Source: Saccoglossus kowalevskii
Taxonomy: Eukaryota > Hemichordata > Enteropneusta > Harrimaniidae
Direction: 5' to 3'
NCBI RefSeq assembly: GCF_000003605.2
Contig: NW_003147498.1
Span: 1 to 20,019, forward strand
Length of the DNA stretch: 20,019 bases
Shown here in pieces: positions 1-20,019 of this stretch; position 1 is the stretch's first letter, and every line of letters starts with the position of its first letter. Position numbers and translations under genes: made by a program. Under the pieces are notes generated by a model. It saw only the letters and a program-made list of their open reading frames with translations. It searched no databases and had not been told where the DNA came from.

Positions 1-649
1 CACCATGATACATGATGGGTAACATTCTGGTGACAATCATTTTTTATCAGGCCGAATAACGAACTGGTAACAAAGTGTTGGTTTCATGTACACCAGGAAT
101 ACATGATGGGTAACATTCTGGTGACAAGTATTTTTTTATTAGGCCGAATAACGAACTGGTAACAAAGTGTTGGTTTCATGTACACCAGGAATGCATGATG
201 GGTAACATTCTGGTGACAAGTATTTTTTTATCAGGCCGAATAACGAACTGGTAACAAAGTGATGGTTTCATGTACACCAGGAATACATGATGGGTAACAT
301 TCTGGTGACAATAATTTTGTTATCAGGCCGAATAACGAACTGGTAACAAAGTGTTGGTTTCATGTACACCAGGAATACATGATGGGTAACATTCTGGTGA
401 CAATCATTTTTTGTATTAGGCCGAATTACGAACTGGTAACAAAGTGTTGGTTTCATGTACACCAGGAATACATGATGGGTAACATTCTGGTGACAATCAT
501 TTTTTGTATTAGGCCGAATAACGAACTGGTGACAAAGTGTTGGTTTCATGTACACCATGAATACATGATGGGTAACATTCTGGTGACAATCATTTTTTAT
601 CAGGCCGAATAACGAACTGGTAACAAAGTGTTGGTTTCATGTACACCAG
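1..649 (+). repeat. Satellite block 1: A C' F/C D B B2 A
   Basis: Monomers start at 7, 97, 189, 281, 373, 466 and 559. The first follows a ccatg junction, so a B2 monomer probably lies just upstream. The monomer at 189 is chimeric: an F-type head (gaatgcatg) with a C box. Its tail carries a private gtgatgg. D-B-B2-A from 281 to 649 is one copy of a string that recurs at 2404, 18183 and 18829. The B at 373 has a private ccgaattacg. There is no gene in this block. Confidence 0.93.
453..475. other. Conserved 7-bp dyad at monomer junction (example)
   Basis: TCATGTA (453-459) and TACATGA (469-475) are perfect inverted repeats separated by nine bases (caccaggaa). They span the junction between successive monomers and recur with nearly every copy in the array. 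In monomers with the gaatgcatg head the right arm is TGCATGA, which leaves one T-G position. A longer, weaker dyad nests around the left arm: CTGGT (433-437) and ACCAG (461-465). Such dyads could be protein-binding or cruciform sites in a satellite, but nothing here shows a function. Confidence 0.6.
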
Positions 650-1203
650 GAATGCATGATGGGTAACATTCTGGTGACAAACATTTTTTTATCAGGCCGA
701 ATAACGAACTGGTAACAAAGTGTTGGTTTCATGTACACCAGGAATACATGATGGGTAACATTCTGGTGACAAGTATTTTTTTATCAGGCCGAATAACGAA
801 CTGGTAACAAAGTGTTGGTTTCATGTACACCAGGAATACATGATGGGTAACATTCTGGTGACAATCATTTTTTTATCAGGCCGAATAACGAACTGGTAAC
901 AAAGTGTTGGTTTCATGTACACCAGGAATACATGATGGGTAACATTCTGGTGACAATCATTTTTTTATCAGGCCGAATAACGAACTGGTAACAAAGTGTT
1001 GGTTTCATGTACACCAGGAATACATGATGGGTAACATTCTGGTGGCAGTCAATTGTTTTACTAGGCCGAATAACGAACTGGTAACAAAGTGTTGGTTTCA
1101 TGTACACCAGGAATACATGATGGGTAACATTCTGGTGGCAGTCAATTGTTTTACTAGGCCGAATAACGAACTGGTAACAAAGTGTTGGTTTCATGTACAC
1201 CAG
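650..1203 (+). repeat. Satellite block 2: F C A' A' E E (HOR string)
   Basis: Monomers start at 650, 742, 834, 926, 1018 and 1111. This six-monomer string of about 554 bp recurs at 9330-9885 and, with an extra A' and followed by D, at 13477-14122. The F tail reads aataacg, not the aataatg seen when G follows. The two E monomers carry the CAATTG (MfeI) hexamer within the box, which no other class has. Confidence 0.93.
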
Positions 1204-2219
1204 GAATACATGATGGGTAACATTCTGGTGACAAGTATTTTTTTATCAGGCCGAATAACGAACTGGTAACAAAGTGTTGGTTTCATGTACACCAGGAATA
1301 CATGATGGGTAACATTCTGGTGACAAGTATTTTTTTATCAGGCCGAATAACGAACTGGTAACAAAGTGTTGGTTTCATGTACACCAGGAATACATGATGG
1401 GTAACATTCTGGTGACAATAATTTTGTTATCAGGCCGAATAACGAACTGGTAACAAAGTGTTGGTTTCATGTACACCAGGAATACATGATGGGTAACATT
1501 CTGGTGACAATCATTTTTTATCAGGACGAATAACGAACTGGTAACAAAGTGTTGGTTTCATGTACACCAGGAATACATGATGGGTAACATTCTGGTGACA
1601 ATCATTTTTTGTATTAGGCCGAATAACGAACTGGTAACAAAGTGTTGGTTTCATGTACACCAGGAATACATGATGGGTAACATTCTGGTGACAATCATTT
1701 TTTGTATTAGGCCGAATAACGAACTGGTGACAAAGTGTTGGTTTCATGTACACCATGAATACATGATGGGTAACATTCTGGTGACAATCATTTTTTATCA
1801 GGCCGAATAACGAACTGGTAACAAAGTGTTGGTTTCATGTACACCAGGAATACATGATGGGTAACATTCTGGTGACAATCATTTTTTGTATTAGGCCGAA
1901 TAACGAACTGGTAACAAAGTGTTGGTTTCATGTACACCAGGAATACATGATGGGTAACATTCTGGTGACAATCATTTTTTGTATTAGGCCGAATAACGAA
2001 CTGGTAACGAAGTGTTGGTTTCATGTACACCAGGAATACATGATGGGTAACATTCTGGTGACAATCATTTTTTGTATTAGGCCGAATAACGAACTGGTAA
2101 CAAAGTGTTGGTTTCATGTACACCAGGAATACATGATGGGTAACATTCTGGTGGCAGTCAATTGTTTTACTAGGCCGAATAACGAACTGGTATCAAAGTG
2201 TTGGTTTCATGTACACCAG
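1204..2219 (+). repeat. Satellite block 3: C C D A* B B2 A B B B E, ~1-kb HOR copy 1
   Basis: Eleven monomers start at 1204, 1296, 1388, 1480, 1571, 1664, 1757, 1848, 1941, 2034 and 2127. The A* at 1480 carries the rare caggacgaat in place of caggccgaat. The same marker, at the same place in the string, occurs at 6934 and 8132. B2 at 1664 has ggtgacaaag and is followed by ccatgaat. The closing E has ggtatcaaag, shared with the E at 17998. The three consecutive B monomers keep a long open frame, which is incidental. Confidence 0.93.
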
Positions 2220-3513
2220 GAATACATGATGGGTAACATTCTGGTGACAAGTATTTTTTTATCAGGCCGAATAACGAACTGGTAACAAAGTGTTGGTTTC
2301 ATGTACACCAGGAATACATGATGGGTAACATTCTGGTGACAAGTATTTTTTTATCAGGCCGAATAACGAACTGGTAACAAAGTGTTGGTTTCATGTACAC
2401 CAGGAATACATGATGGGTAACATTCTGGTGACAATAATTTTGTTATCAGGCCGAATAACGAACTGGTAACAAAGTGTTGGTTTCATGTACACCAGGAATA
2501 CATGATGGGTAACATTCTGGTGACAATCATTTTTTGTATTAGGCCGAATAACGAACTGGTAACAAAGTGTTGGTTTCATGTACACCAGGAATACATGATG
2601 GGTAACATTCTGGTGACAATCATTTTTTGTATTAGGCCGAATAACGAACTGGTGACAAAGTGTTGGTTTCATGTACACCATGAATACATGATGGGTAACA
2701 TTCTGGTGACAAATCATTTTTTATCAGGCCGAATAACGAAACTGGTAACAAAGTGTTGGTTTCATGTACACCAGGAATGCATGATGGGTAACATTCTGGT
2801 GACAAACATTTTTTTTATCATGCCGAATAACGAACTGGAAACAAAGTGTTGGTTTCATGTACACCAAGAATACATGATGGGTAACATTCTGGTGACAATC
2901 TTTTTTTATCAGGCCGTAATAACGAACTGGTAACAAAGTGTTGGTTTCATGTACACCAGGAATACATGATGGGTATCATTCTGGTGACAAGTATTTTTTT
3001 ATTAGGCCGAATAACGAACTGGTAACAAAGTGTTGGTTTCATGTACACCAGGAATGCATGATGGGTAACATTCTGGTGACAAACATTTTTTTATCAGGCC
3101 GAATAATGAACTGGTAACAAAGTGTTGGTTTCATGTACACCAGGAATACATGATAGGTAAGATTCTGGTGACAAGTATTTTTTTATCAGGCCGAATAACG
3201 AACTGGTAACAAAGTGTTGGTTTCATGTACACCAGGAATACATGATGGGTAACATTCTGGTGGCAGTCAATTGTTTTACTAGGCCGAATAACGAACTGGT
3301 AACAAAGTGTTGGTTTCATGTACACCAGGAATACATGATGGGTAACATTCTGGTGACAATAATTTTGTTATCAGGCCGAATAACGAACTGGTAACAAAGT
3401 GTTGGTTTCATGTACACCAGGAATACATGATGGGTAACATTCTGGTGACAATCATTTTTTGTATTAGGCCGAATAACGAACTGGTAACAAAGTGTTGGTT
3501 TCATGTACACCAG
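2220..3513 (+). repeat. Satellite block 4: C C D B B2 A F A' C' F G E D B
   Basis: Monomers start at 2220, 2312, 2404, 2496, 2589, 2682, 2775, 2868, 2960, 3052, 3144, 3236, 3329 and 3421. From 2404 the order matches 18829-19846 (D B B2 A' F C' F G E D B) with one additional monomer, the A'-like one at 2868. The F at 2775 has an eight-T tract, as does the F at 19199, which supports common descent. Several single-base indels fall in 2700-2930 (gacaaatc, cgaaactgg, ccgtaataac). Confidence 0.9.
3052..3235 (+). repeat. F-G linked monomer pair (type example)
   Basis: F at 3052 has three markers (gaatgcatg head, aacat box, aataatg tail). G at 3144 has gataggtaagattc followed by a C box. The same pair occurs at 4355, 5921, 10344, 15043, 18552 and 19385. 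Every F with aataatg is followed by G, and every G is preceded by such an F, so the two behave as one inherited unit of about 184 bp. Confidence 0.9.
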
Positions 3514-4169
3514 GAAGACATGATGGGTAACATTCTGGTGACAATCATTTTTTATCAGGCCGAATAACGAACTGGTAACAAAGTGTTGGTTTCATGTACA
3601 TCAGGAAATACATGATGGGTAACATTCTGGTGACAATAATTTTGTTATCAGGCCGAATAACGAACTGGTAACAAAAGTGTTGGTTTTCATGTACACCAGG
3701 AATACATGATGGGTAACATTTCTGGTTGACAATCATTTTTTGTATTAGGCCGAATAACGAACTGGTAACAAAGTGTTTGGTTTCATGTACACCAGGAATA
3801 CATGATGGGTAACATTCTGGTGACATTCATTTTTTTGTATTAAGGCCGAATAACGAACTGGGTAACAAAGTGTTGGTTCATGTACACCAGGAATACATGA
3901 TGGGTAACATTTCTGGTGACAAGTATTTTTTTTTATCAGGCCGAATAACGAACTGGTAACAAAGTGTTGGTTTCATGTACACCAGGAATACATGATGGGT
4001 AACATTCTGGTGACAAGTATTTTTTTATCAGGCCGAATAACGAACTGGTAACAAAGTGTTGGTTTCATGTACACCAGGAATACATGATGGGTAACATTCT
4101 GGTGACAAGTATTTTTTTATCAGGCCGAATAACGAACTGGTAACAAAGTGTTGGTTTCATGTACACCAG
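3514..4169 (+). repeat. Satellite block 5: A D B B C C C, indel-rich
   Basis: Monomers start at 3514, 3605, 3700, 3796, 3891, 3986 and 4078. The A at 3514 has a gaagacatg head, a marker otherwise found mainly on D monomers that follow C. The stretch 3600-3930 has an exceptional density of homopolymer-length changes: caggaaatac, acaaaagtg, ggttttcatg, catttctggttgac, gtgtttgg, attaaggcc, ctgggtaac, ggttcatg and a nine-T box. Flanking monomers lack these changes, so this may be an unpolished consensus patch. Confidence 0.88.
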
Positions 4170-5367
4170 GAATACATGATGGGTAACATTCTGGTGACAA
4201 TCATTTTTTATCAGGCCGAATAACGAACTGGTAACAAAGTGTTGGTTTCATGTACACCAGGAATACATGATGGGTAACATTTTGGTGACAATCATTTTTT
4301 TGTATTAGGCCGAATAACGAACTGGTAACAAAGTGTTGGTTTCATGTACACCAGGAATGCATGATGGGTAACATTCTTGTGACAAACATTTTTTTATCAG
4401 GCCGAATAATGAACTGGTAACAAAGTGTTGGTTTCATGTACACCAGGAATACATGATAGGTAAGATTCTGGTGACAAGTATTTTTTTATCAGGCCGAATA
4501 ACGAACTGGTAACAAAGTGTTGGTTTCATGTACACCAGGAATACATGATGGGTAACATTCTGGTGACAATCATTTTTTTATCAGGCCGAATAACGAACTG
4601 GTAACAAAGTGTTGGTTTCATGTACACCAGGAATACATGATGGGTAACATTCTGGTGACAAGTATTTTTTTATCAGGCCGAATAACGAACTGGTAACAAA
4701 GTGTTGGTTTCATGTACACCAGGAATACATGATGGGTAACATTCTGGTGACAAGTATTTTTTTATCAGGCCGAATAACGAACTGGTAACAAAGTGTTGGT
4801 TTCATGTACACCAGGAATACATGATGGGTAACATTCTGGTGACAAGTATTTTTTTATCAGGCCGAATAACGAACTGGTAACAAAGTGTTGGTTTCATGTA
4901 CACCAGGAATACATAATGGGTAACATTCTGGTGACAATCATTTTTTGTATTAGGCCGAATAACGAACTGGTAACAAAGTGTTGGTTTCATGTACACCAGG
5001 AATGCATGATGGGTAACATTCTGGTGACAATCATTTTTTGTATTAGGCCGAATAACGAACTGGTAACAAAGTGTTGGTTTCATGTACACCAGGAATACAT
5101 GATGGGTAACATTCTGGTGACAATCATTTTTTATCAGGCCGAATAACGAAACTGGTAACAAAGTGTTGGTTTCATGTACACCAGGAATACATGATGGGTA
5201 ACATTCTGGTGACAAGTATTTTTTTATCAGGCCGAATAACGAACTGGTAACAAAGTGTTGGTTTCATGTACACCAGGAATGCATGATGGGTAACATTCTG
5301 GTGACAATCATTTTTTATCAGGCCGAATAACGAAATGGTAACAAAGTGTTGGTTTCATGTACACCAG
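4170..5367 (+). repeat. Satellite block 6: A B(7T) F G A' C C C B F/B A C F/A
   Basis: Monomers start at 4170, 4261, 4355, 4447, 4539, 4631, 4723, 4815, 4907, 5000, 5093, 5185 and 5277. Bases 4170-4538 (A, B with a seven-T tract, F with cttgtgac, G) match 10159-10527 in order, length and both rare markers. Two chimeric monomers carry the F head gaatgcatg on other boxes: B at 5000 and A at 5277. The B at 4907 has a private cataatggg. Confidence 0.91.
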
Positions 5368-6657
5368 GAATACATGATGGGTAACATTCTGGTGACAATC
5401 ATTTTTTTATCAGGCCGAATAACGAACTGGTAACAAAGTGTTGGTTTCATGTACACCAGGAATACATGATGGGTAACATTCTGGTGGCAGTCAATTGTTT
5501 TACTAGGCCGAATAACGAACTGGTAACAAAGTGTTGGTTTCATGTACACCAGGAATACATGATGGGTAACATTCTGGTGGCAGTCAATTGTTTTACTAGG
5601 CCGAATAACGAACTGGTAACAAAGTGTTGGTTTCATGTACACCAGGAATACATGATGGGTAACATTCTGGTGACAATCATTTTTTATCAGGCCGAATAAC
5701 GAACTGGTAACAAAGTGTTGGTTTCATGTACACCAGGAATACATGATGGGTAACATTCTGGTGACAATCATTTTTTATCAGGCCGAATAACGAACTGGTA
5801 ACAAAGTGTTGGTTTCATGTACACCAGGAATACATGATGGGTAACATTCTGGTGACAATCATTTTTTGTATTAGGCCGAATAACGAACTGGTAACAAAGT
5901 GTTGGTTTCATGTACACCAGGAATGCATGATGGGTAACATTCTGGTGACAAACATTTTTTTATCAGGCCGAATAATGAACTGGTAACAAAGTGTTGGTTT
6001 CATGTACACCAGGAATACATGATAGGTAAGATTCTGGTGACAAGTATTTTTTTATCAGGCCGAATAACGAACTGGTAACAAAGTGTTGGTTTCATGTACA
6101 CCAGGAATACATGATGGGTAACATTCTGGTTGCAATCATTTTTTTATCAGGCCGAATAACGAACTGGTAACAAAGTGTTGGTTTCATGTACACCAGGAAT
6201 ACATGATGGGTAACATTCTGGTGACAAGTATTTTTTTATCAGGCCGAATAACGAACTGGTAACAAAGTGTTGGTTTCATGTACACCAGGAATACATGACG
6301 GGTAACATTCTGGTGACAATCATTTTTTTATCAGGCCGAATAACGAACTGGTAACAAAGTGTTGGTTTCATGTACACCAGGAATACATGATGGGTAACAT
6401 TCTGGTTGCAATCATTTTTTTATCAGGCCGAATAACGAACTGGTAACAAAGTGTTGGTTTCATGTACACCAGGAATACATGATGGGTAACATTCTGGTGA
6501 CAATCATTTTTTGTATTAGGCCGAATAACGAACTGGTAACAAAGTGTTGGTTTCATGTACACCAGGAATACATGACGGGTAACATTCTGGTGACAATCAT
6601 TTTTTTATCAGGCCGAATAACGAACTGGTAACAAAGTGTTGGTTTCATGTACACCAG
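5368..6657 (+). repeat. Satellite block 7: A' E E A A B F G A'' C A' A'' B A'
   Basis: Monomers start at 5368, 5460, 5553, 5646, 5737, 5828, 5921, 6013, 6105, 6197, 6289, 6381, 6473 and 6566. The order A' E E A A B F G parallels 9606-10527, where the A run has four copies and B has seven T. The last six monomers form two three-monomer units, 6105-6380 and 6381-6657. Each opens with ggttgcaatc and closes with an A' headed catgacggg. The middle monomer is C in one unit and B in the other. Confidence 0.91.
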
Positions 6658-7671
6658 GAATACATGATGGGTAACATTCTGGTGACAAGTATTTTTTTAT
6701 CAGGCCGAATAACGAACTGGTAACAAAGTGTTGGTTTCATGTACACCAGGAATACATGATGGGTAACATTCTGGTGACAAGTATTTTTTTATCAGGCCGA
6801 ATAACGAACTGGTAACAAAGTGTTGGTTTCATGTACACTAGGAATACATGATGGGTAACATTCTGGTGACAATAATTTTGTTATCAGGCCGAATAACGAA
6901 CTGGTAACAAAGTGTTGGTTTCATGTACACCAGGAATACATGATGGGTAACATTCTGGTGACAATCATTTTTTATCAGGACGAATAACGAACTGGTAACA
7001 AAGTGTTGGTTTCATGTACACCAGGAATACATGATGGGTAACATTCTGGTGACAATCATTTTTTGTATTAGGCCGAATAACGAACTGGTAACAAAGTGTT
7101 TGATTCATGTACACCAGGAATACATGATGGGTAACATTCTGGTGACAATCATTTTTTGTATTAGGCCGAATAACGAACTGGTGACAAAGTGTTGGTTTCA
7201 TGTACACCATGAATACATGATGGGTAACATTCTGGTGACAATCATTTTTTATCAGGCCGAATAACGAACTGGTAACAAAGTGTTGGTTTCATGTACACCA
7301 GGAATACATGATGGGTAACATTCTGGTGACAATCATTTTTTGTATTAGGCCGAATAACGAACTGGTAACAAAGTGTTGGTTTCATGTACACCAGGAATAC
7401 ATGATGGGTAACATTCTGGTGACAATCATTTTTTATCAGGCCGAATAACGAACTGGTAACAAAGTGTTGGTTTCATGTACACCAGGAATACATGATGGGT
7501 AACATTCTGGTGACAATCATTTTTTGTATTAGGCCGAATAACGAACTGGTAACAAAGTGTTGGTTTCATGTACACCAGGAATACATGATGGGTAACATTC
7601 TGGTGGCAGTCAATTGTTTTACTAGGCCGAATAACGAACTGGTAACAAAGTGTTGGTTTCATGTACACCAG
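6658..7671 (+). repeat. Satellite block 8: C C D A* B B2 A B A B E, ~1-kb HOR copy 2
   Basis: Monomers start at 6658, 6750, 6842, 6934, 7025, 7118, 7211, 7302, 7395, 7486 and 7579. The order matches 1204-2219 at ten of eleven places; the ninth monomer is A instead of B. The A* marker (gacgaat) at 6934 is shared with the other two copies. A private ctagg junction lies just before 6842, and gtgtttgattc lies in the B at 7025. Confidence 0.93.
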
Positions 7672-8778
7672 GAATACATGATGGGTAACATTCTGGTGAC
7701 AATCATTTTTTTATCAGGCCGAATAACGAACTGGTAACAAAGTGTTGGTTTCATGTACACCAAGAATACATGATGGGTAACATTCTGGTGACAAGTATTT
7801 TTTTATCAGGCCGAATAACGAACTGGTAAGAAAGTGCTGGTTTCATGTACACCAGGAATACATGATGGGTAACATTCTGGTGACAAGTATTTTTTTATCA
7901 GGCCGAATAACGAACTGGTAACAAAGTGTTGGTTTCATGTACACCAGGAATACATGATGGGTAACATTCTGGTGACAAGTATTTTTTTATCAGGCCGAAT
8001 AACGAACTGGTAACAAAGTGTTGGTTTCATGTACACCAGGAATACATGATGGGTAACATTCTGGTGACAATAATTTTGTTATCAGGCCGAATAACGAACT
8101 GGTAACAAAGTGTTGGTTTCATGTACACCAGGAATACATGATGGGTAACATTCTGGTGACAATCATTTTTTATCAGGACGAATAACGAACTGGTAACAAA
8201 GTGTTGGTTTCATGTACACCAGGAATACATGATGGGTAACATTCTGGTGACAATCATTTTTTGTATTAGGCCGAATAACGAACTGGTAACAAAGTGTTGG
8301 TTTCATGTACACCAGGAATACATGATGGGTAACATTCTGGTGACAATCATTTTTTGTATTAGGCCGAATAACGAACTGGTGACAAAGTGTTGGTTTCATG
8401 TACACCAGGAATACATGATGGGTAACATTCTGGTGACAATCATTTTTTGTATTAGGCCGAATAACGAACTGGTAACAAAGTGTTGGTTTCATGTACACCA
8501 GGAATACATGATGGGTAACATTCTGGTGACAATCATTTTTTATCAGGCCGAATAACGAACTGGTAACAAAGTGTTGGTTTCATGTACACCAGAAATACAT
8601 GATGGGTAACATTCTGGTGACAATCATTTTATGTATTAGGCCGAATAACGAACTGGTAACAAAGTGTTGGTTTCATGTACACCAGGAATACATGATGGGT
8701 AACATTCTGGTGGCAGTCAATTGTTTTACTAGGCCGAATAACGAACTGGTAACAAAGTGTTGGTTTCATGTACACCAG
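7672..8778 (+). repeat. Satellite block 9: A' C then C C D A* B B2 B A B E, HOR copy 3
   Basis: Monomers start at 7672, 7764, 7856, 7948, 8040, 8132, 8223, 8316, 8409, 8502, 8593 and 8686. From 7856 the string is the third copy of the C-C-D-A*-B-B2 unit, with A* at 8132. B2 at 8316 keeps ggtgacaaag but is followed by ccagg, not ccatg, so the usual pairing is broken here. The C at 7764 has a ccaagaat junction and a gtgctgg tail, as does the C at 8871, 1,107 bases downstream. The B at 8593 has attttatgtattag. Confidence 0.92.
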
Positions 8779-9329
8779 GAATACATGATGGGTAACATTC
8801 TGGTGACAATAATTTTGTTATCAGGCCGAATAACGAACTGGTAACAAAGTGTTGGTTTCATGTACACCAAGAATACATGATGGGTAACATTCTGGTGACA
8901 AGTATTTTTTTATCAGGCCGAATAACGAACTGGTAACAAAGTGCTGGTTTCATGTACACCAGGAATACATGATGGGTAACATTCTGGTGACAAGTATTTT
9001 TTTATCAGGCCGAATAACGAACTGGTAACAAAGTGTTGGTTTCATGTACACCAGGAATACATGATGGGTAACATTCTGGTGACAATCATTTTTTTATCAG
9101 GCCGAATAACGAACTGGTAACAAAGTGTTGGTTTCATTTACACCAGGAATACATGATGGGTAACATTCTGGTGACAATCATTTTTTATCAGGCCGAATAA
9201 CGAACTGGTTACAAAGTGTTGGTTTCATGTACACCAGGAATACATGATGGGTAACATTCTGGTGACAAGTATTTTTTTATTAGGCCGAATAACGAACTGG
9301 TAACAAAGTGTTGGTTTCATGTACACCAG
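8779..9329 (+). repeat. Satellite block 10: D C C A' A C'
   Basis: Monomers start at 8779, 8871, 8963, 9055, 9147 and 9238. The C at 8871 repeats the ccaagaat plus gtgctgg marker pair of 7764. The tail of the A' at 9055 carries a private ttcatttac, which breaks the junction dyad. C' at 9238 leads into F, as it also does at 2960, 13385 and 19293. Confidence 0.91.
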
Positions 9330-9885
9330 GAATGCATGATGGGTAACATTCTGGTGACAAACATTTTTTTATCAGGCCGAATAACGTACTGGTAACAAAG
9401 TGTTGGTTTCATGTACATCAGGAATACATGATGGGTAACATTCTGGTGACAAGTATTTTTTTATCAGGCCGAATAACGAACTGGTAACAAAGTGTTGGTT
9501 TCATGTACACCAGGAATACATGATGGGTAACATTCTGGTGACAATCATTTTTTTATCAGGCCGAATAACGAACTGGTAACAAAGTGTTGGTTTCATGTAC
9601 ACCAGGAATACATGATGGGTAACATTCTGGTGACAATCATTTTTTTATCAGGCCGAATAACGAACTGGTAACAAAGTGTTGGTTTCATGTACACCAGGAA
9701 TACATGATGGGTAACATTCTGGTGGCAGTCAATTGTTTTACTAGGCCGAATAACGAACTGGTAACAAAGTGTTGGTTTCATGTACACCAGTGTAATACAT
9801 GATGGGTAACATTCTGGTGGCAGTCAATTGTTTTACTAGGCCGAATAACGAACTGGTAACAAAGTGTTGGTTTCATGTACACCAG
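9330..9885 (+). repeat. Satellite block 11: F C A' A' E E (HOR string, copy 2)
   Basis: Monomers start at 9330, 9422, 9514, 9606, 9698 and 9791. The order is the same as at 650-1203. Private changes are acgtactgg in F, a catcagg junction before 9422, and a two-base insertion at the second E junction (ccagtgtaatac at 9787-9798). Confidence 0.92.
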
Positions 9886-10249
9886 GAATACATGATGGGT
9901 AACATTCTGGTGACAATCATTTTTTATCAGGCCGAATAACGAACTGGTAACAAAGTGTTGGTTTCATGTACACCAGGAATACATGATGGGTAACATTCTG
10001 GTGACAATCATTTTTTATCAGGCCGAATAACGAACTGGTAACAAAGTGTTGGTTTCATGTACACCAGGAATACATGATGGGTAACATTCTGGTGACAATC
10101 ATTTTTTATCAGGCCGAATAACGAACTGGTAACAAAGTGTTGGTTTCATGTACACCAGGAATACATGATGGGTAACATTCTGGTGACAATCATTTTTTAT
10201 CAGGCCGAATAACGAACTGGTAACAAAGTGTTGGTTTCATGTACACCAG
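9886..10249 (+). repeat. Satellite block 12: four consecutive A monomers
   Basis: Four 91-bp A monomers start at 9886, 9977, 10068 and 10159. By eye they are identical to each other. This is the longest pure A run in the window. The related context at 5646-5827 has only two. The pattern suggests a recent local expansion by slippage or unequal exchange, although assembly duplication cannot be excluded. Confidence 0.93.
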
Positions 10250-11173
10250 GAATACATGATGGGTAACATTCTGGTGACAATCATTTTTTTGTATTAGGCC
10301 GAATAACGAACTGGTAACAAAGTGTTGGTTTCATGTACACCAGGAATGCATGATGGGTAACATTCTTGTGACAAACATTTTTTTATCAGGCCGAATAATG
10401 AACTGGTAACAAAGTGTTGGTTTCATGTACACCAGGAATACATGATAGGTAAGATTCTGGTGACAAGTATTTTTTTATCAGGCCGAATAACGAACTGGTA
10501 ACAAAGTGTTGGTTTCATGTACACCAGGAATACATGATGGGTAACATTCTGGTGACAATCATTTTTTTATCAGGCCGAATAACGAACTGGTAACAAAGTG
10601 TTGGTTTCATGTACACCAGGAATACATGATGGGTAACATTCTGGTGACAATCATTTTTTTATCAGGCCGAATAACGAACTGGTAACAAAGTGTTGGTTTC
10701 ATGTACACCAGGAATACATGATGGGTAACATTCTGGTGGCAGTCAATTGTTTTACTAGGCCGAATAACGAACTGGTAACAAAGTGTTGGTTTCATGTACA
10801 CCAGGAATACATGATGGGTAACATTCTGGTGGCAGTCAATTGTTTTACTAGGCCGAATAACGACTGGTAACAAAGTGTTGGTTTCATGTACACCAGGAAT
10901 ACATGATGGGTAACATTCTGGTGACAATAATTTTGTTATCAGGCCGAATAACGAACTGGTATCAAAGTGTTGGTTTCATGTACACCAGGAATACATGATG
11001 GGTAACATTCTGGTGACAATCATTTTTTGTATTAGGCCGAATAACGAACTGGTAACAAAGTGTTGGTTTCATGTACACCAGGAATACATGATGGGTAACA
11101 TTCTGGTGACAAGTATTTTTTTATCAGGCCGAATAACGAACTGGTAACAAAGTGTTGGTTTCATGTACACCAG
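10250..11173 (+). repeat. Satellite block 13: B(7T) F G A' A' E E D B C
   Basis: Monomers start at 10250, 10344, 10436, 10528, 10620, 10712, 10805, 10897, 10989 and 11082. B(7T)-F-G repeats the 4261-4538 string, with cttgtgac in F and aataatg in its tail. The second E has a one-base deletion (cgactgg), and the D at 10897 has ggtatcaaag. Confidence 0.91.
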
Positions 11174-12280
11174 GAAGACATGATGGGTAACATTCTGGTG
11201 GCAGTCAATTGTTTTACTAGGCCGAATAACGAACTGGTAACAAAGTGTTGGTTTCATGTACACCAGGAATACATGATGGGTAACATTCTTGTGGCAGTCA
11301 ATTGTTTTACTAGGCCGAATAACGAACTGGTAACAAAGTGTTGGTTTCATGTACACCAGGAATACATGATGGGTAACATTCTGGTGACAATAATTTTGTT
11401 ATCAGGCCGAATAACGAACTGGTAACAAAGTGTTGGTTTCATGTACACCAGGAATACATGATGGGTAACATTCTGGTGACAATCATTTTTTATCAGGCCG
11501 AATAACGAACTGGTAACAAAGTGTTCGTTTCATGTACACCAGGAATACATGATGGGTAACATTCTGGTGACAATCATTTTTTGTATTAGGCCGAATAACG
11601 AACTGGTAACAAAGTGTTGGTTTCATGTACACCAGGAATACATGATGGGTAACATTCTGGTGACAAGTATTTTTTTATCAGGCCGAATAACGAACTGGTA
11701 ACAAAGTGTTGGTTTCATGTACACCAGGAATACATGATGGGTAACATTCTGGTGACAAGTATTTTTTTATCAAGCCGAATAACGAACTGGTAACAAAGTG
11801 TTGGTTTCATGTACACCAGGAATACATGATGGGTAACATTCTGGTGACAAGTATTTTTTTATCAGGCCGAATAACGAACTGGTAACAAAGTGTTGGTTTC
11901 ATGTACACCAGGAATACATGATGGGTAACATTCTGGTGACAAGTATTTTTTTATCAGGCCGAATAACGAACTGGTAACAAAGTGTTGGTTTCATGTACAC
12001 CAGGAATACATGATGGGTAACATTCTGGTGACAATCATTTTTTGTATTAGGCCGAATAACGAACTGGTAACAAAGTGTTGGTTTTATGTACACCAGGAAT
12101 ACATGATGGGTAACATTCTGGTGACAATCATTTTTTGTATTAGGCCGAATAACGAACTGGTAACAAAGTGTTGGTTTCATGTACACCAGGAATACATGAT
12201 GGGTAACATTCTGGTGACAATCATTTTTTTATCAGCCGAATAACGAACTGGTAACAAAGTGTTGGTTTCATGTACACCAG
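11174..12280 (+). repeat. Satellite block 14: E E D A B C C C C B B A'
   Basis: Monomers start at 11174, 11267, 11360, 11452, 11543, 11636, 11728, 11820, 11912, 12004, 12097 and 12190. The first E has a gaagacatg head, the only E with that marker. The second has cttgtggcag. The run of four C followed by B B recurs at 14399-14952. The last monomer loses one base in the box-tail join (atcagccgaa). Confidence 0.91.
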
Positions 12281-12741
12281 GAATACATGATGGGTAACAT
12301 TCTGGTGACAAACATTTTTTTTATCAGCAGAATAACGAACTGGTACAAAGTGTTGGTTTCATGTACACCAGGAATACATGATGGGTAACATCTGGTGGCA
12401 GTCAATTGTTTTACTAGGCCGAATAACGAACTGGTAACAAAGTGTTGGTTTCATGTACACCAGGAATACATGATGGGTAACATTCTGGTGACAATCTTTT
12501 TTGTATTAGGCCGAAAAACGAACTGGTAACAAAGTGTTGGTTTCATGTACACCAGGAATACATGATGGGTAACATTCTGGTGACAATCATTTTTTGTATT
12601 AGGCCGAATAACGAACTGGTAACAAAGTGTTGGTTTCATGTACACCAGGAATACATGATGGGTAACATTCTGGTGGCAGTCAATTGTTTTACTAGGCCGA
12701 ATAACGAACTGGTAACAAAGTGTTGGTTTCATGTACACCAG
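12281..12741 (+). repeat. Satellite block 15: F-like E B B E, with deletions
   Basis: Monomers start at 12281, 12372, 12464, 12556 and 12649. The first has an F box with eight T but the common gaatacatg head. Single-base losses cluster here: atcagcag, ctggtacaaag and aacatctgg. B at 12464 has a shortened box (atcttttttg) and ccgaaaaacg. The second half is regular. Confidence 0.88.
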
Positions 12742-13384
12742 GAATACATGATGGGTAACATTCTGGTGACAAGTATTTTTTTATCAGGCCGAATAACGAA
12801 CTGGTAACAAAGTGTTGGTTTCATGTACACCAGGAATACATGATGGGTAACATTCTGGTGACAAGTATTTTTTTATCAGGCCGAATAACGAACTGGTAAC
12901 AAAGTGTTGGTTTCATGTACACCAGGAACACATGATGGGTAACATTCTGGTGACAATAATTTTGTTATCAGGCCGAATAACGAACTGGTAACAAAGTGTT
13001 GGTTTCATGTACACCAGGAATACATGATGGGTAACATTCTGGTGACAATCATTTTTTATCAGGCCGAATAACGAACTGTAACAAAGTGTTGGTTTCATGT
13101 ACACCAGGAATACATGATGGGTAACATTCTGGTGACAATCATTTTTTGTATTAGGCCGAATAACGAACTGGTAACAAAGTGTTGGTTTCATGTACACCAG
13201 GAATACATGATGGGTAACATTCTGGTGACAATCATTTTTTGTATTAGGCTGAATAACGAACTGGTGACAAAGTGTTGGTTTCATGTACACCATGAATACA
13301 TGATGGGTAACATTCTGGTGACAATAATTTTTTATCAGGCCGAATAACGAACTGGTAACAAAGTGTTGGTTTCATGTACACCAG
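12742..13384 (+). repeat. Satellite block 16: C C D A B B2 A
   Basis: Monomers start at 12742, 12834, 12926, 13018, 13108, 13201 and 13294. The order is that of the first seven monomers of the ~1-kb HOR, but the fourth monomer is ordinary A without gacgaat. This copy is therefore a separate lineage, or has been converted. The D head is gaacacatg. A at 13018 lacks a g (gaactgtaac). B2 at 13201 has ggctgaat and the normal ggtgacaaag plus ccatgaat pair. Confidence 0.92.
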
Positions 13385-14214
13385 GAATATATGATGGGTA
13401 ACATTCTGGTGACAAGTATTTTTTTATTAGGCCGAATAACGAATTGGTAACAAAGTGTTGGTTTCATGTACACCAGGAATGCATGATGGGTAACATTCTG
13501 GTGACAAACATTTTTTTATCAGGCCGAATAACGAACTGGTAACAAAGTGTTGGTTTCATGTACACCAGGAATACATGATGGGTAACATTCTGGTGACAAG
13601 TATTTTTTTATCAGGCCGAATAACGAACTGGTAACAAAGTGTTGGTTTCATGTACACCAGGAATACATGATGGGTAACATTCTGGTGACAATCATTTTTT
13701 TATCAGGCCGAATAACGAACTGGTAACAAAGTGTTGGTTTCATGTACACCAGGAATACATGATGGGTAACATTCTGGTGACAATCATTTTTTTATCAGGC
13801 CGAATAACGAACTGGTAACAAAGTGTTGGTTTCATGTACACCAGGAATACATGATGGGTAACATTCTGGTGACAATCATTTTTTTATCAGGCCGAATAAC
13901 GAACTGGTAACAAAGTGTTGGTTTCATGTACACCAGGAATACATGATGGGTAACATTCTGGTGGCAGTCAATTGTTTTACTAGGCCGAATAACGAACTGG
14001 TAACAAAGTGTTGGTTTCATGTACACCAGGAATACATGATGGGTAACATTCTGGTGGCAGTCAATTGTTTTACTAGGCCGAATAACGAACTGGTAACAAA
14101 GTGTTGGTTTCATGTACACCAGGAATACATGATGGGTAACATTCTGGTGACAATAATTTTGTTATCAGGCCGAATAACGAACTGGTAACAAAGTGTTGGT
14201 TTCATGTACACCAG
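13385..14214 (+). repeat. Satellite block 17: C' F C A' A' A' E E D
   Basis: Monomers start at 13385, 13477, 13569, 13661, 13753, 13845, 13937, 14030 and 14123. This is the third copy of F-C-A'-A'-E-E, here with three A' monomers in place of two. C' precedes F as elsewhere; its head is a private gaatatatg and its tail has cgaattgg. Confidence 0.92.
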
Positions 14215-15042
14215 GAATACATGATGGGTAACATTCTGGTGACAAGTATTTTTTTATCAGGCCGAATAACGAACTGGTAACAAAGTGTTGGTTTCATGTA
14301 CACCAGGAATACATGATGGGTAACATTCTGGTGACAATCATTTTTTTATCAGGCCGAATAACGAACTGGTAACAAAGTGTTGGTTTCATGTACACCAGGA
14401 ATACATGATGGGTAACATTCTGGTGACAAGTATTTTTTTATCAGGCCGAATAACGAACTGGTAACAAAGTGTTGGTTTCATGTACACCATGAATACATGA
14501 TGGGTAACATTCTGGTGACAAGTATTTTTTTATCAGGCCGAATAACGAACTGGTAACAAAGTGTTGGTTTCATGTACACCAGGAATACATGATGGGTAAC
14601 ATTCTGGTGACAAGTATTTTTTTATCAGGCCGAATAACGAACTGGTAACAAAGTGTTGGTTTCATGTACACCAGGAATACATGATGGGTAACATTCTGGT
14701 GACAAGTATTTTTTTATCAGGCCGAATAACGAACTGGTAACAAAGTGTTGGTTTCATGTACACCAGGAATACATGATGGGTAACATTCTGGTGACAATCA
14801 TTTTTTGTATTAGGCCGAATAACGAACTGGTAACAAAGTGTTGGTTTCATGTACACCAGGAATACATGATGGGTAACATTCTGGTGACAATCATTTTTTG
14901 TATTAGGCCGAATAACGAACTGGTAACAAAGTGTTGGTTTCATGTACACCAGGAATACATGATGGGTAACATTCTGGTGACAATCATTTTTTATCAGCCG
15001 AATAACGAACTGGTAACAAAGTGTTGGTTTCATGTACACCAG
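14215..15042 (+). repeat. Satellite block 18: C A' C C C C B B A
   Basis: Monomers start at 14215, 14307, 14399, 14491, 14583, 14675, 14767, 14860 and 14953. The C at 14491 follows a ccatgaat junction although no B2 precedes it, an exception to the usual linkage. The closing A lacks one g (atcagccgaa), like the A' at 12190. Both follow a B-B pair after a C run, so the deletion is likely shared by descent. Confidence 0.91.
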
Positions 15043-16057
15043 GAATGCATGATGGGTAACATTCTGGTGACAAACATTTTTTTATCAGGCCGAATAATGA
15101 ACTGGTAACAAAGTGTTGGTTTCATGTACACCAGGAATACATGATAGGTAAGATTCTGGTGACAAGTATTTTTTTATCAGGCCGAATAACGAACTGGTAA
15201 CAAAGTGTTGGTTTCATGTACACCAGGAATACATGATGGGTAACATTCTGGTGGCAGTCAATTGTTTTACTAGGCCGAATAACGAACTGGTAACAAAGTG
15301 TTGGTTTCATGTACACCAGGAATACATGATGGGTAACATTCTGGTGACAATAATTTTGTTATCAGGCCGAATAACGAACTGGTAACAAAGTGTTGGTTTC
15401 ATGTATACCAGGAATACATGATGGGTAACATTCTTGTGACAATCATTTTTTGCATTAGGCCGAATAACGAACGGGTAACAAAGTGTTGGTTTCATGTACA
15501 CCAGGAATACATGATGGGTAACATTCTGGTGACAAGTATTTTTTTATCAGGCCGAATAACGAACTGGTAACAAAGTGTTGGTTTCATGTACACCAGGAAG
15601 ACATGATGGGTAACATTCTGGTGACAATAATTTTGTTATCAGGCCGAATAACGAACTGGTAACAAAGTGTTGGTTTCATGTACACCAGGAATACATGATG
15701 GGTAACATTCTGGTGACAAGTATTTTTTTATCAGGCCGAATAACGAACTGGTAACAAAGTGTTGGTTTCATGTACACCAGGAATACATGATGGGTAACAT
15801 TCTGGTGACAATCATTTTTTGTATTAGGCCGAATAACGAACTGGTAACAAAGTGTTGGTTTCATGTACACCAGGAATACATGATGGGTAACATTCTGGTG
15901 ACAATCATTTTTTGTATTAGGCCGAATAACGAACTGGTAACAAAGTGTTGGTTTCATGTACACCAGGAATACATGATGGGTAACATTCTGGTGACAATCA
16001 TTTTTTATCAGGCCGAATAACGAACTGGTAACAAAGTGTTGGTTTCATGTACACCAG
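15043..16057 (+). repeat. Satellite block 19: F G E D B C D C B B A
   Basis: Monomers start at 15043, 15135, 15227, 15320, 15412, 15505, 15597, 15689, 15781, 15874 and 15967. F-G-E-D-B-C-D matches 19385-20019 monomer by monomer with the same spacing. The D tail in both has catgtatacc, and the last D in both has a gaagacatg head. B at 15412 also has private cttgtgac, ttgcattag and gaacggg. Confidence 0.93.
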
Positions 16058-16980
16058 GAATACATGATGGGTAACATTCTGGTTGCAATCATTTTTTTAT
16101 CAGGCCGAATAACGAACTGGTAACAAAGTGTTGGTTTCATGTACACCAGGAATACATGATGGGTAACATTCTGGTGACAAGTATTTTTTTATCAGGCCGA
16201 ATAACGAACTGGTAACAAAGTGTTGGTTTCATGTACACCAGGAATACATGATGGGTAACATTCTGGTGACAATCATTTTTTTATCAGGCCGAATAACGAA
16301 CTGGTAACAAAGTGTTGGTTTCATGTACACCAGGAATACATGATGGGTAACATTCTGGTGACAATCATTTTTTTATCAGGCCGAATAACGAACTGGTAAC
16401 AAAGTGTTGGTTTCATGTACACCAGGAATACATGATGGGTAACATTCTGGTGACAAGTATTTTTTTATCAGGCCGAATAACGAACTGGTAACAAAGTGCT
16501 GGTTTCATGTACACCATGAATACATGATGGGTAACATTCTGGTGACAATCATTTTTTGTATTAGGCCGAATAACGAACTGGTAACAAAGTGTTGGTTTCA
16601 TGTACACCAGGAATACATGATGGGTAACATTCTGGTGGCAGTCAATTGTTTTACTAGGCCGAATAACGAACTGGTAACAAAGTGTTGGTTTCATGTACAC
16701 CAGGAATACATGATGGGTAACATTCTGGTGACAAGTATTTTTTTATCAGGCCGAATAACGAACTGGTAACAAAGTGTTGGTTTCATGTACACCAGGAAGA
16801 CATGATGGGTAACATTCTGGTGACAATAATTTTGTTATCAGGCCGAATAACGAAGTGGTAACAAAGTGTTGGTTTCATGTACACCAGGGAATACATGATG
16901 GGTAACATTCTGGTGACATCATTTTTTTATCAGGCCGAATAACGAACTGGTAACAAAAGTGTTGGTTTCATGTACACCAG
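16058..16980 (+). repeat. Satellite block 20: A'' C A' A' C B E C D A'
   Basis: Monomers start at 16058, 16150, 16242, 16334, 16426, 16518, 16611, 16704, 16796 and 16889. The opening A'' has ggttgcaatc and is followed by C and A', as at 6105. C at 16426 has gtgctgg and leads to a ccatgaat junction without B2. D at 16796 has a gaagacatg head after C, as at 15597 and 19939. Indels cluster near 16880-16960 (ccaggga, gacatcat, acaaaagtg). Confidence 0.91.
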
Positions 16981-18182
16981 GAATACATGATGGGTAACAT
17001 TCTGGTGACAATCATTTTTTATCAGGCCGAATAACGAACTGGTAACAAAGTGTTGGTTTCATGTACACCAGGAATACATGATGGGTAACATTCTGGTGAC
17101 AATCATTTTTTGTATTAGGCCGAATAACGAACTGGTAACAAAGTGTTGGTTTCATGTACACCAGGAATACATGATGGGTAACATTCTGGTGACAATCATT
17201 TTTTGTATTAGGCCGAATAGCGAACTGGTGACAAAGTGTTGGTTTCATGTACACCATGAATACATGATGGGTAACATTCTGGTGACAATCATTTTTTATC
17301 AGGCCGAATAACGAACTGGTAACAAAGTGTTGGTTTCATGTACACCAGGAATACATGATGGGTAACATTTTGGTGACAAGTATTTTTTTATTAGGCCGAA
17401 TAACGAACTGGTAACAAAGTGTTGGTTTCATGTACACCAGGAATACATGATGGGTAACATTTTGGTGGCAGTCAATTGTTTTACTAGGCTGAATAACGAA
17501 CTGGTAACAAAGTGTTGGTTTCATGTACACCAGGAATACATGATGGGTAACATTCTGGTGACAAGTATTTTTTTATCAGGCCGAATAACGAACTGGTAAC
17601 AAAGTGTTGGTTTCATGTACACCAGGGAATACATGATGGGTAACATTTCTGGTGACAGTATTTTTTTATCAAGGCCGAATAACGAACTGGTAACAAAGTG
17701 TTGGTTTCATGTACACCAGGAATACATGATGGGTAACATTCTGGTGACAATAATTTTGTTATCAGGCCGAATAACGAACTGGTAACAAAGTGTTGGTTTC
17801 ATGTACACCAGGAATACATGATGGGTAACATTCTGGTGACAATCATTTTTTGTATTAGGCCGAATAACGAACTGGTAACAAAGTGTTGGTTTCATGTACA
17901 CCAGGAATACATGATGGGTAACATTCTGGTGACAATCATTTTTTGTATTAGGCCGAATAACGAACTGGTGACAAAGTGTTGGTTTCATGTACACCAGGAA
18001 TACATGATGGGTAACATTCTGGTGGCAGTCAATTGTTTTACTAGGCCGAATAACGAACTGGTATCAAAGTGTTGGTTTCATGTACACCAGGAATACATGA
18101 TGGGTAACATTCTGGTGACAAGTATTTTTTTATCAGGCCGAATAACGAACTGGTAACAAAGTGTTGGTTTCATGTACACCAG
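16981..18182 (+). repeat. Satellite block 21: A B B2 A C' E C C D B B2 E C
   Basis: Monomers start at 16981, 17072, 17165, 17258, 17349, 17441, 17534, 17627, 17720, 17812, 17905, 17998 and 18091. B2 at 17165 has a private aatagcg. C' and E at 17349 and 17441 both have acattttgg, so the change probably spread between neighbours. The C at 17627 shows ccaggga, atttctgg, gacagtat and tcaagg, an indel pattern like that near 3700-3920. B2 at 17905 is followed by ccagg and by an E with ggtatcaaag. Confidence 0.91.
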
Positions 18183-18828
18183 GAATACATGATGGGTAAC
18201 ATTCTGGTGACAATAATTTTGTTATCAGGCCGAATAACGAACTGGTAACAAAGTGTTGGTTTCATGTACACCAGGAATACATGATGGGTAACATTCTGGT
18301 GACAATCATTTTTTGTATTAGGCCGAATAACGAACTGGTAACAAAGTGTTGGTTTCATGTACACCAGGAATACATGATGGGTAACATTCTGGTGACAATC
18401 ATTTTTTGTATTAGGCCGAATAACGAACTGGTGACAAAGTGTTGGTTTCATGTACACCATGAATACATGATGGGTAACATTCTGGTGACAATCATTTTTT
18501 ATCAGGCCGAATAACGAACTGGTAACAAAGTGTTGGTTTCATGTACACCAGGAATGCATGATGGGTAACATTCTGGTGACAAACATTTTTTTATCAGGCC
18601 GAATAATGAACTGGTAACAAAGTGTTGGTTTCATGTACACCAGGAATACATGATAGGTAAGATTCTGGTGACAAGTATTTTTTTATCAGGCCGAATAACG
18701 AACTGGTAACAAAGTGTTGGTTTCATGTACACCAGGAATACATGATGGGTAACATTCTGGTGGCAGTCAATTGTTTTACTAGGCCGAATAACGAACTGGT
18801 AACAAAGTGTTGGTTTCATGTACACCAG
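18183..18828 (+). repeat. HOR unit D B B2 A F G E (646 bp), terminal series copy 1
   Basis: Monomers start at 18183, 18275, 18368, 18461, 18552, 18644 and 18736. The unit contains both linked markers: B2 (ggtgacaaag) followed by ccatgaat, and F (gaatgcatg, aataatg) followed by G (gataggtaagattc). The next D, at 18829, begins a second copy directly, making this the clearest tandem higher-order unit in the window. Confidence 0.93.
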
Positions 18829-19661
18829 GAATACATGATGGGTAACATTCTGGTGACAATAATTTTGTTATCAGGCCGAATAACGAACTGGTAACAAAGT
18901 GTTGGTTTCATGTACACCAGGAATACATGATGGGTAACATTCTGGTGACAATCGTTTTTTGTATTAGGCCAAATAACAAACTGGTAACAAAGTGTTGGTT
19001 TCATGTACACCAGGAATACATGATGGGTAACATTCTGGTGACAATCATTTTTTGTATTAGGCCGAATAACAAACTGGTGACAAAGTGTTGGTTTCATGTA
19101 CACCATGAATACATGATGGGTAACATTCTGGTGACAATCATTTTTTTATCAGGCCGAATAACGAACTGGTAACAAAGTGTTGGTTTCATGTACACCAGGA
19201 ATACATGATGGGTAACATTCTGGTGACAAACATTTTTTTTATCAGGCCGAATAACGAACTGGTAACAAAGTGTTGGGTTTCATGTACACCAGGAATACAT
19301 GATGGGTAACATTCTGGTGACAAGTATTTTTTTATTAGGCCGAATAACGAACTGGTAACAAAGTGTTGGTTTCATGTACACCAGGAATGCATGATGGGTA
19401 ACATTCTGGTGACAAACATTTTTTTATCAGGCCGAATAATGAACTGGTAACAAAGTGTTGGTTTCATGTACACCAGGAATACATGATAGGTAAGATTCTG
19501 GTGACAAGTATTTTTTTATCAGGCCGAATAACGAACTGGTAACAAAGTGTTGGTTTCATGTACACCAGGAATACATGATGGGTAACATTCTGGTGGCAGT
19601 CAATTGTTTTACTAGGCCGAATAACGAACTGGTAACAAAGTGTTGGTTTCATGTACACCAG
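18829..19661 (+). repeat. HOR unit D B B2 A' F C' F G E (833 bp), terminal series copy 2
   Basis: Monomers start at 18829, 18921, 19014, 19107, 19199, 19293, 19385, 19477 and 19569. This is the previous unit with an additional F-like (eight T) and C' pair before F-G-E. B and B2 here share aataacaaactgg, seen nowhere else; B also has atcgtttttt and ggccaaat. The version at 2404-3328 is the same string plus one A'-like monomer. Confidence 0.92.
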
Positions 19662-20019
19662 GAATACATGATGGGTAACATTCTGGTGACAATAATTTTG
19701 TTATCAGGCCGAATAACGAACTGGTAACAAAGTGTTGGTTTCATGTATACCAGGAATACATGATGGATAACATTCTGGTGACAATCATTTTTTGTATTAG
19801 GCCGAATAACGAACTGGTAACGAAGTGTTGGTTTCATGTACACCAGGAATACATGATGGGTAACATTCTGGTGACAAGTATTTTTTTATCAGGCCGTATA
19901 ACGAACTGGTAACAAAGTGTTGGTTTCATGTACACCAGGAAGACATGATGGGTAACATTCTGGTGACAATAATTTTGTTATCAGGCCGAATAACGAACTG
20001 GTAACAAAGTGTTGGTTGA
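19662..20019 (+). repeat. Terminal partial HOR: D B C D
   Basis: Monomers start at 19662, 19754, 19847 and 19939. The D tail has catgtatacc and the last D has a gaagacatg head, as at 15320 and 15597. The final bases read gttggttga where gttggtttca is expected, so the array is cut or mis-called at the last few bases. The array almost certainly continues beyond the window. Confidence 0.92.

Follow-up and report, generated by a model that had tools for sequence, protein, structure and literature searches.

In primate alpha satellite, monomer types are distinguished by a 17-bp box (pJ-alpha/CENP-B) within a shared unit (PMC4585704). The DNA analyzed in this study, a stretch of 20,019 bp from Saccoglossus kowalevskii (henceforth the window), resembles that system in being a tandem satellite with box-defined monomers (A-type and B-type in the primate case) in a shared unit and in forming higher-order repeats. 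In contrast to the 171-bp unit and two box forms of alpha satellite, it has a 92-bp unit with at least seven forms, its matches to the alpha satellite motifs lie at chance level, and its classes hardly differ outside the box. Romanova is said to have argued in 1996 for selection on the alpha satellite box.

Sliding-window analysis of the satellites of Meloidogyne chitwoodi and M. fallax delimited boxes of low variability in higher-order arrays (PMC3694981), and conserved and variable parts are also described for Meloidogyne satellites elsewhere (PMC9673304). The likeness lies in variability that is uneven along the unit and in the higher-order arrays; the proportions are reversed, however, with short conserved boxes in divergent units in Meloidogyne and a long constant frame with a short variable box here. 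Hall et al. reportedly described, in 2003, conserved and variable domains in the centromere satellite of Arabidopsis, a likeness that we take from the title alone. The Arabidopsis unit is unlike the present one in both length and sequence. Division of a satellite into conserved and variable parts is already known, and what sets the window apart is the reversal of proportions and the many box forms. No closer match to a layout of constant frame and variable box was found in the literature searched, although this does not establish that the layout is new.

It has long been debated if satellite DNA ever comes under selection for its sequence. The window offers a clean case, in which rare changes are evenly spread, changes in the box alone have become common, and satellites of the same genome do not show the pattern as strongly. 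It allows tests of whether the frame acts as a module that is bound or positioned, and comparing rare with common variants is an approach applicable to any long-read satellite array.

The array and its box forms

The window is the complete sequence of an unplaced contig (C3796) in an assembly of 572 Mb and 4830 contigs. TRF found a single array of tandem satellite DNA with a 92-bp unit, covering positions 1-20017 with 216.9 copies and 95% matches. Wraparound alignment against the consensus, which is the source of the diversity figures below, yielded 216 full monomers, and a single MAFFT alignment of the monomers gave the same outline. Coding potential was not seen, open stretches in a tandem of the consensus unit being at most 47 codons long, and the contig is probably a heterochromatic satellite array of an animal genome.

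Searches of the own genome with frame probes of 29 and 25 bp, at up to three mismatches, found at least 211 places for each probe and 0 on the reverse strand. Since 211 sites for each probe lie within the window itself, the satellite sits in one unplaced contig, within the reach of these probes; a more diverged subfamily, with more than three mismatches, would lie beyond it. The real array may be longer than the assembled contig. An exact 35-bp frame probe had 0 matches in genome_contigs, an exact 24-bp probe had 0 in viral_contigs, and a literature search by monomer sequence strings gave no match.

Nine box forms were distinguished among the 216 monomers, namely G (51), B (49), S (28), E (24), A (22), D (20), C (13), H (6) and T (3). 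An exact match to a named form was found in 197 of the boxes, while the remaining 19 were assigned to the nearest form. The boxes of E and B, both 22 nt long, differ by six substitutions without any indel, and E is six or seven edits away from every other form. The abundant form S differs from A in the length of the T-run only. Some forms are set apart by neighboring changes, i.e. TC to GT in G, GA to TG in T and six at once in E, and the length of the T-run also varies. At indices 26/27 and 38 all four combinations are present among forms A, G, B and H, which implies recurrent change or recombination inside the box, or more than five events. The initial annotation, made from the letters alone, had counted about 217 copies with a few discrete box forms, and had noticed the six indel-free differences between E and B; all of this agrees with the present counts. 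Examples of the forms are given in Table 1 together with the other features.

Table 1. Features of the window, with positions on the 20,019-bp sequence.
Feature	Position	Strand	Basis or remark
Head-to-tail 92-bp satellite array	1..20019	.	TRF, segmentation and class order; 216 full monomers, nine box forms, irregular higher-order
First full monomer, class S, 91 bp	11..101	+	Numbering starts at CATGATGGG
Box form S, 20 nt, example	31..50	+	Sequence and class assignment
Frame dyad TCATGTA / TACATGA, 7-bp arms, 9 nt apart	84..106	.	Intact at 192/215 monomer junctions
Box form D, 21 nt, example	306..326	+	3' half forms the most complete inverted repeat with downstream frame stretch CTGGTAACAAA
Box form B, 22 nt, example	398..419	+	Sequence and class assignment
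Box form E, 22 nt, six substitutions from B, example	1043..1064	+	Sequence and distances
Longest exact repeat, 570 bp, one copy	1186..1755	+	Second copy from 7838; block duplication
Linked block: class C with 50T, then class G with 6A and 12G	3057..3240	+	Pair recurs 7/7

Rare and common variants in box and frame

Diversity among the 216 monomers was 0.1343 over the 21 positions of the box and 0.0157 over the 71 positions of the frame, a ratio of 8.6. The most diverse 21-bp circular window begins exactly at the box, and its value was equalled in 0 of 20,000 column permutations, which bears out the earlier claim that variation is concentrated there. Substitution alleles present in a single copy number 7 in the box and 27 in the frame (0.33 and 0.38 per site), those in 2-4 copies 3 and 12, and those in 5-15 copies 1 and 7, whereas the alleles reaching at least 16 copies number 9 in the box and 0 in the frame. 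These common substitutions are limited to 17 core positions (monomer indices 22-38), and the indel alleles at the same level, one deletion and two insertions, are likewise found in the box only. The density of alleles did not differ between box and frame for singletons (Fisher, p = 0.80) or for alleles in 2-15 copies (4 in 21 versus 19 in 71 sites, p = 0.58). The contrast between common and rarer substitutions gave p = 4.5e-6, a value that wrongly takes linked alleles as independent. Singletons may in part be sequencing errors, as the contig possibly rests on few reads; the comparison at 2-15 copies is independent of them.

With similar densities per site in the three lower bands, changes appear to arise evenly along the unit, and box changes alone have reached high copy number. 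By the same token, the box does not act as a hotspot of mutation at present, the rarer alleles being as dense in the frame. The near-constancy ascribed to the frame in the initial annotation holds in that 119 of the 216 monomers carry the exact consensus frame and that common frame alleles number 0, but rare variants are as many per site there as in the box. Copy numbers of 5-15 are also attained no less readily by frame variants than by box variants (7 in 71 versus 1 in 21 sites), so purifying selection is invisible at that level.

From these sequence comparisons, we tentatively favor a reading in which the frame is under long-term constraint and the box is a tolerated spacer. The missing common frame variants would then reflect such constraint, e.g. 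on a putative protein-binding or chromatin-positioning module. Single faulty frames would be tolerated while arrays in which they spread would be lost, i.e. the constraint would act at the level of the array. This is favored by the nine common substitutions in the box against none in the frame at equal density of rare ones, by the modal frame shared between classes, by the rarity of the pattern in simulations and by the weaker pattern in all seven control arrays (see below). Against it speak the frame variants in 5-15 copies, the chance of 0.012 for five clustered events, the three control arrays that lean the same way, a dyad that is not conserved and motifs at chance level.

A different origin of the clustering, in past mutation, is unlikely. 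The T-rich tract would have been a weak spot subject to error-prone or templated repair, each form arising by one complex event that left the frame unhit. The neighboring changes that distinguish G, T and E, as well as the variable T-run, are what such events would leave. The box is, however, no denser than the frame in singletons (7 of 21 versus 27 of 71 sites) or in variants of 2-4 copies (3 versus 12), and the frame has a linked pair of its own, 6A with 12G (7/7).

Known motifs and structures were also looked for. The best match to the CENP-B box in the consensus unit was 10/17, equalled by 661 of 1000 shuffles, and that to the pJ-alpha motif was likewise 10/17, equalled by 786 of 1000, both of which are at chance level; with this and a 92-bp unit the array is not alpha satellite. 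Rfam gave no match on either strand of positions 1-3000, up to an E-value of 5, and hence no sign of a ribozyme or structured-RNA satellite. The frame dyad listed in Table 1 is not specially conserved, given its intactness at 192 of 215 junctions only, and its right arm carries the frame variants 91G and 90G. TRF rows with periods of 43-50 made an ancient duplication of half-units a candidate, which was rejected, the likeness of direct halves being equalled by 420 and that of inverted halves by 103 of 500 shuffles.

Folding of the plus strand was compared with shuffles and gave z-scores of -3.92 for form D, -3.05 for A, -1.57 for B and -0.89 for E, against -0.33 for the minus strand of form A. 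When folded as DNA, D had -2.85 and A -1.69, with weaker values in the other forms. A conserved RNA or hairpin was rejected as the constrained element in view of the weak scores of E and B and of the minus strand. Moreover, the box arm changes while the frame arm stays constant, so that there is no compensation, and the hairpin is not what is constrained. Within positions 306-350, the 3' half-box of form D pairs nearly completely with CTGGTAACAAA as an inverted repeat, a pairing that is weaker in the other forms.

Linkage, block duplication and the order of monomer types

The exact consensus frame is found in eight of the nine box classes, class H (0/6) lacking it, and the modal frame is common to seven classes, with C and H each one site off. 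Several frame alleles are tied to particular boxes. Alleles 6A and 12G occur together and in class G (7/7), 50T in class C (7/7) and 59G in class B (10/10), while 86T is divided between B (8/10) and G (2/10), and 90G between G (4/5) and B (1/5). Allele 91G is spread over classes H, S, B and G, and the next monomer is of class C in 11 of 14 cases. Each of the seven 50T monomers is followed by a 6A-12G monomer. Most frame variants in 5-15 copies thus track the box class or the neighboring monomers, from which it follows that blocks of monomers were duplicated, and the array was built through repeated duplication of such blocks. Among the frame alleles in 2-4 copies, 6 of 12 occur on more than one box class, by either recurrent mutation or some short exchange.

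The initial annotation had offered two explanations of the constant frame, namely maintenance by conversion or selection, and boxes that move as cassettes, and had asked if box haplotype predicts the flanking variants. Prediction works for most frame alleles in 5-15 copies and breaks down for half of those in 2-4 copies (6/12). Full linkage of frame haplotypes to box class, or a profile without a peak at the box, had been named there as refuting results. Neither was obtained, as one frame is shared by 119 of 216 monomers across classes and the diversity peak is present at the box. The two explanations are thus borne out in part. Constancy of the frame appears to be upheld over the longer term, with nine of nine common substitutions in the box, but ongoing conversion finds little support, as it should uncouple the 5-15 copy frame alleles from boxes to which most are still coupled. 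Cassettes are needless where most of these variants follow box class or neighbors, even though 6 of the 12 at 2-4 copies are on more than one class. Reassortment of boxes and frames by cassette movement or present conversion, which is the explanation least needed, is accordingly given only the faintest chance. The single frame in 119 of 216 monomers and eight of nine classes would fit it, as would the 2-4 copy alleles on several classes and 86T on G in 2 of 10. The ties of most 5-15 copy variants to box class or next monomer, including 50T with the following 6A-12G monomer (7/7), argue against it, and so does the longest exact repeat, which spans several monomers.

Repeated duplication of monomer blocks thus built an array whose nine monomer types differ chiefly in one T-rich box. 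The box differences predate the present frame variants, which ride on particular box classes or neighbors, as seen for most variants in 5-15 copies.

The order of classes is not random. Conditional entropy was 2.19 bits, compared with a mean of 2.61 (sd 0.035) and a lowest value of 2.49 in 2000 shuffles. In 10 of 13 cases the monomer after a class C monomer is of class G, and words such as GGDSBB (four times), CGEDB (four times) and CGAAEE (three times) recur. A fixed monomer period was not found, label agreement at lags 2-59 being at most 0.206 versus 0.160 expected (0.247 at lag 1), and class C monomers are spaced by 2 to 38 monomers. Non-random order without a fixed period makes this an irregular higher-order array, with recurring type order, co-occurring neighbors and the 570-bp exact repeat as its repeated blocks.

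Such order could also be expected if the box were a recognition site that selection had diversified into several functional alleles, by analogy with the CENP-B/pJ-alpha box of alpha satellite. The discrete forms (197/216 exact), the 17-position core and the ordered arrangement (2.19 bits versus 2.61 +/- 0.03 in 2000 shuffles) would be compatible with that idea, which we consider quite improbable given that the consensus unit is without a known motif and that block duplication alone also predicts order. Highly improbable is an extension by which a constant module would carry an alphabet of box forms, these being putative protein-recognition alleles, and the loose order would be an information-carrying barcode instead of a by-product of duplication.

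Simulated arrays and neighboring satellites

Neutral arrays of 216 monomers were simulated with block duplication and uniform mutation in 4711 runs, substitutions being counted singly. Among runs with at least nine common alleles, 1 of 1624 confined them all to a single 21-bp stretch, and in 7 of 1624 the diversity ratio was at least 8.6. With at least six common alleles the numbers were 3 and 33 of 2733, and with at least ten they were 0 and 2 of 1321. When each abundant box class is instead counted as one event, the probability that five events fall within a 21-bp arc is 0.012, and within a 17-bp arc 0.005, while six events within one 21-bp arc have a probability of 0.0035. A chance origin of the clustering in the box is disfavored.

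Neutral chance, which would make constraint unneeded, is nevertheless a somewhat more serious competitor than those above, if still rather doubtful. About five early box variants would by chance have arisen near one another in a short founder array, with block amplification then making them common. There are only five abundant classes other than A (G 51, B 49, S 28, E 24 and D 20) and therefore few independent events, for which the probabilities of 0.012 and 0.005 apply; frame variants do spread, up to 14 copies, and weak clustering was found in 3 of 7 control arrays. On the other hand, E is six or seven edits from the other forms, all within the box, the four combinations at 26/27 and 38 point to more than five events or recombination within the box, and the site-wise simulation gave 3 of 2733.

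As a control, 11 sequences, i.e. the window and ten neighboring contigs or parts of them, were put through one pipeline, the contigs being read in part. No tandem array was found in C3789, C3790 and C3791 (first 3.5 kb). None of the seven arrays that were found (0/7) is as strong as the window, with best-window ratios of 1.9-3.2 versus 8.5, while C3798, C3793 and C3800 lean weakly toward clustering (Table 2). Overall identity is close to that of the window in C3797 only (0.954 versus 0.958).

Table 2. Clustering of diversity in the window and in tandem arrays of neighboring contigs.
Sequence	Unit	Copies	Diversity ratio	Permutation p	Common substitutions in/out of best window
Window			8.5	0.0002	9/0
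C3797	136 bp	72	2.2	0.66	5/9
C3798	137 bp	42	3.2	0.044	4/1
C3794	51 bp	195	2.2	0.12	5/7
C3793	62 bp	88	2.9	0.067	4/1
C3799	39 bp	115	1.9	0.54	5/4
C3800	216 bp	6	2.0	0.026	1/2
C3802	58 bp	24	2.2	0.65	3/3

As far as they were read, the small contigs nearby consist mostly of a single satellite each, with units of 62 bp in C3793, 51 bp in C3794, 136 bp in C3797, 137 bp in C3798, 39 bp in C3799 and 29/58 bp in C3802. In C3800:1-1500 (L064), the consensus of the 216-bp tandem unit opens with sequence that appears to resemble a 5S rRNA gene in its 3' part. Near the end of the 3.16-Mb contig C2261 (L045:9034-9782) there is a further, different array of a 51-bp unit, with 14.7 tandem copies.

Elsewhere in the assembly, C4830 (17,037 bp) is a mitochondrial genome. 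It is rearranged, with ND2 between two Leu tRNAs and COX1 on the opposite strand, and the AGA codon that lies in frame within ND5 argues against use of the vertebrate code. The order of its genes pointed to a lancelet of the genus Asymmetron, a candidate that was rejected on the ground that cox3 and nad3 are relocated in Asymmetron (PMC2034537). A 141-bp repeat is found in 4.8 copies at its start.
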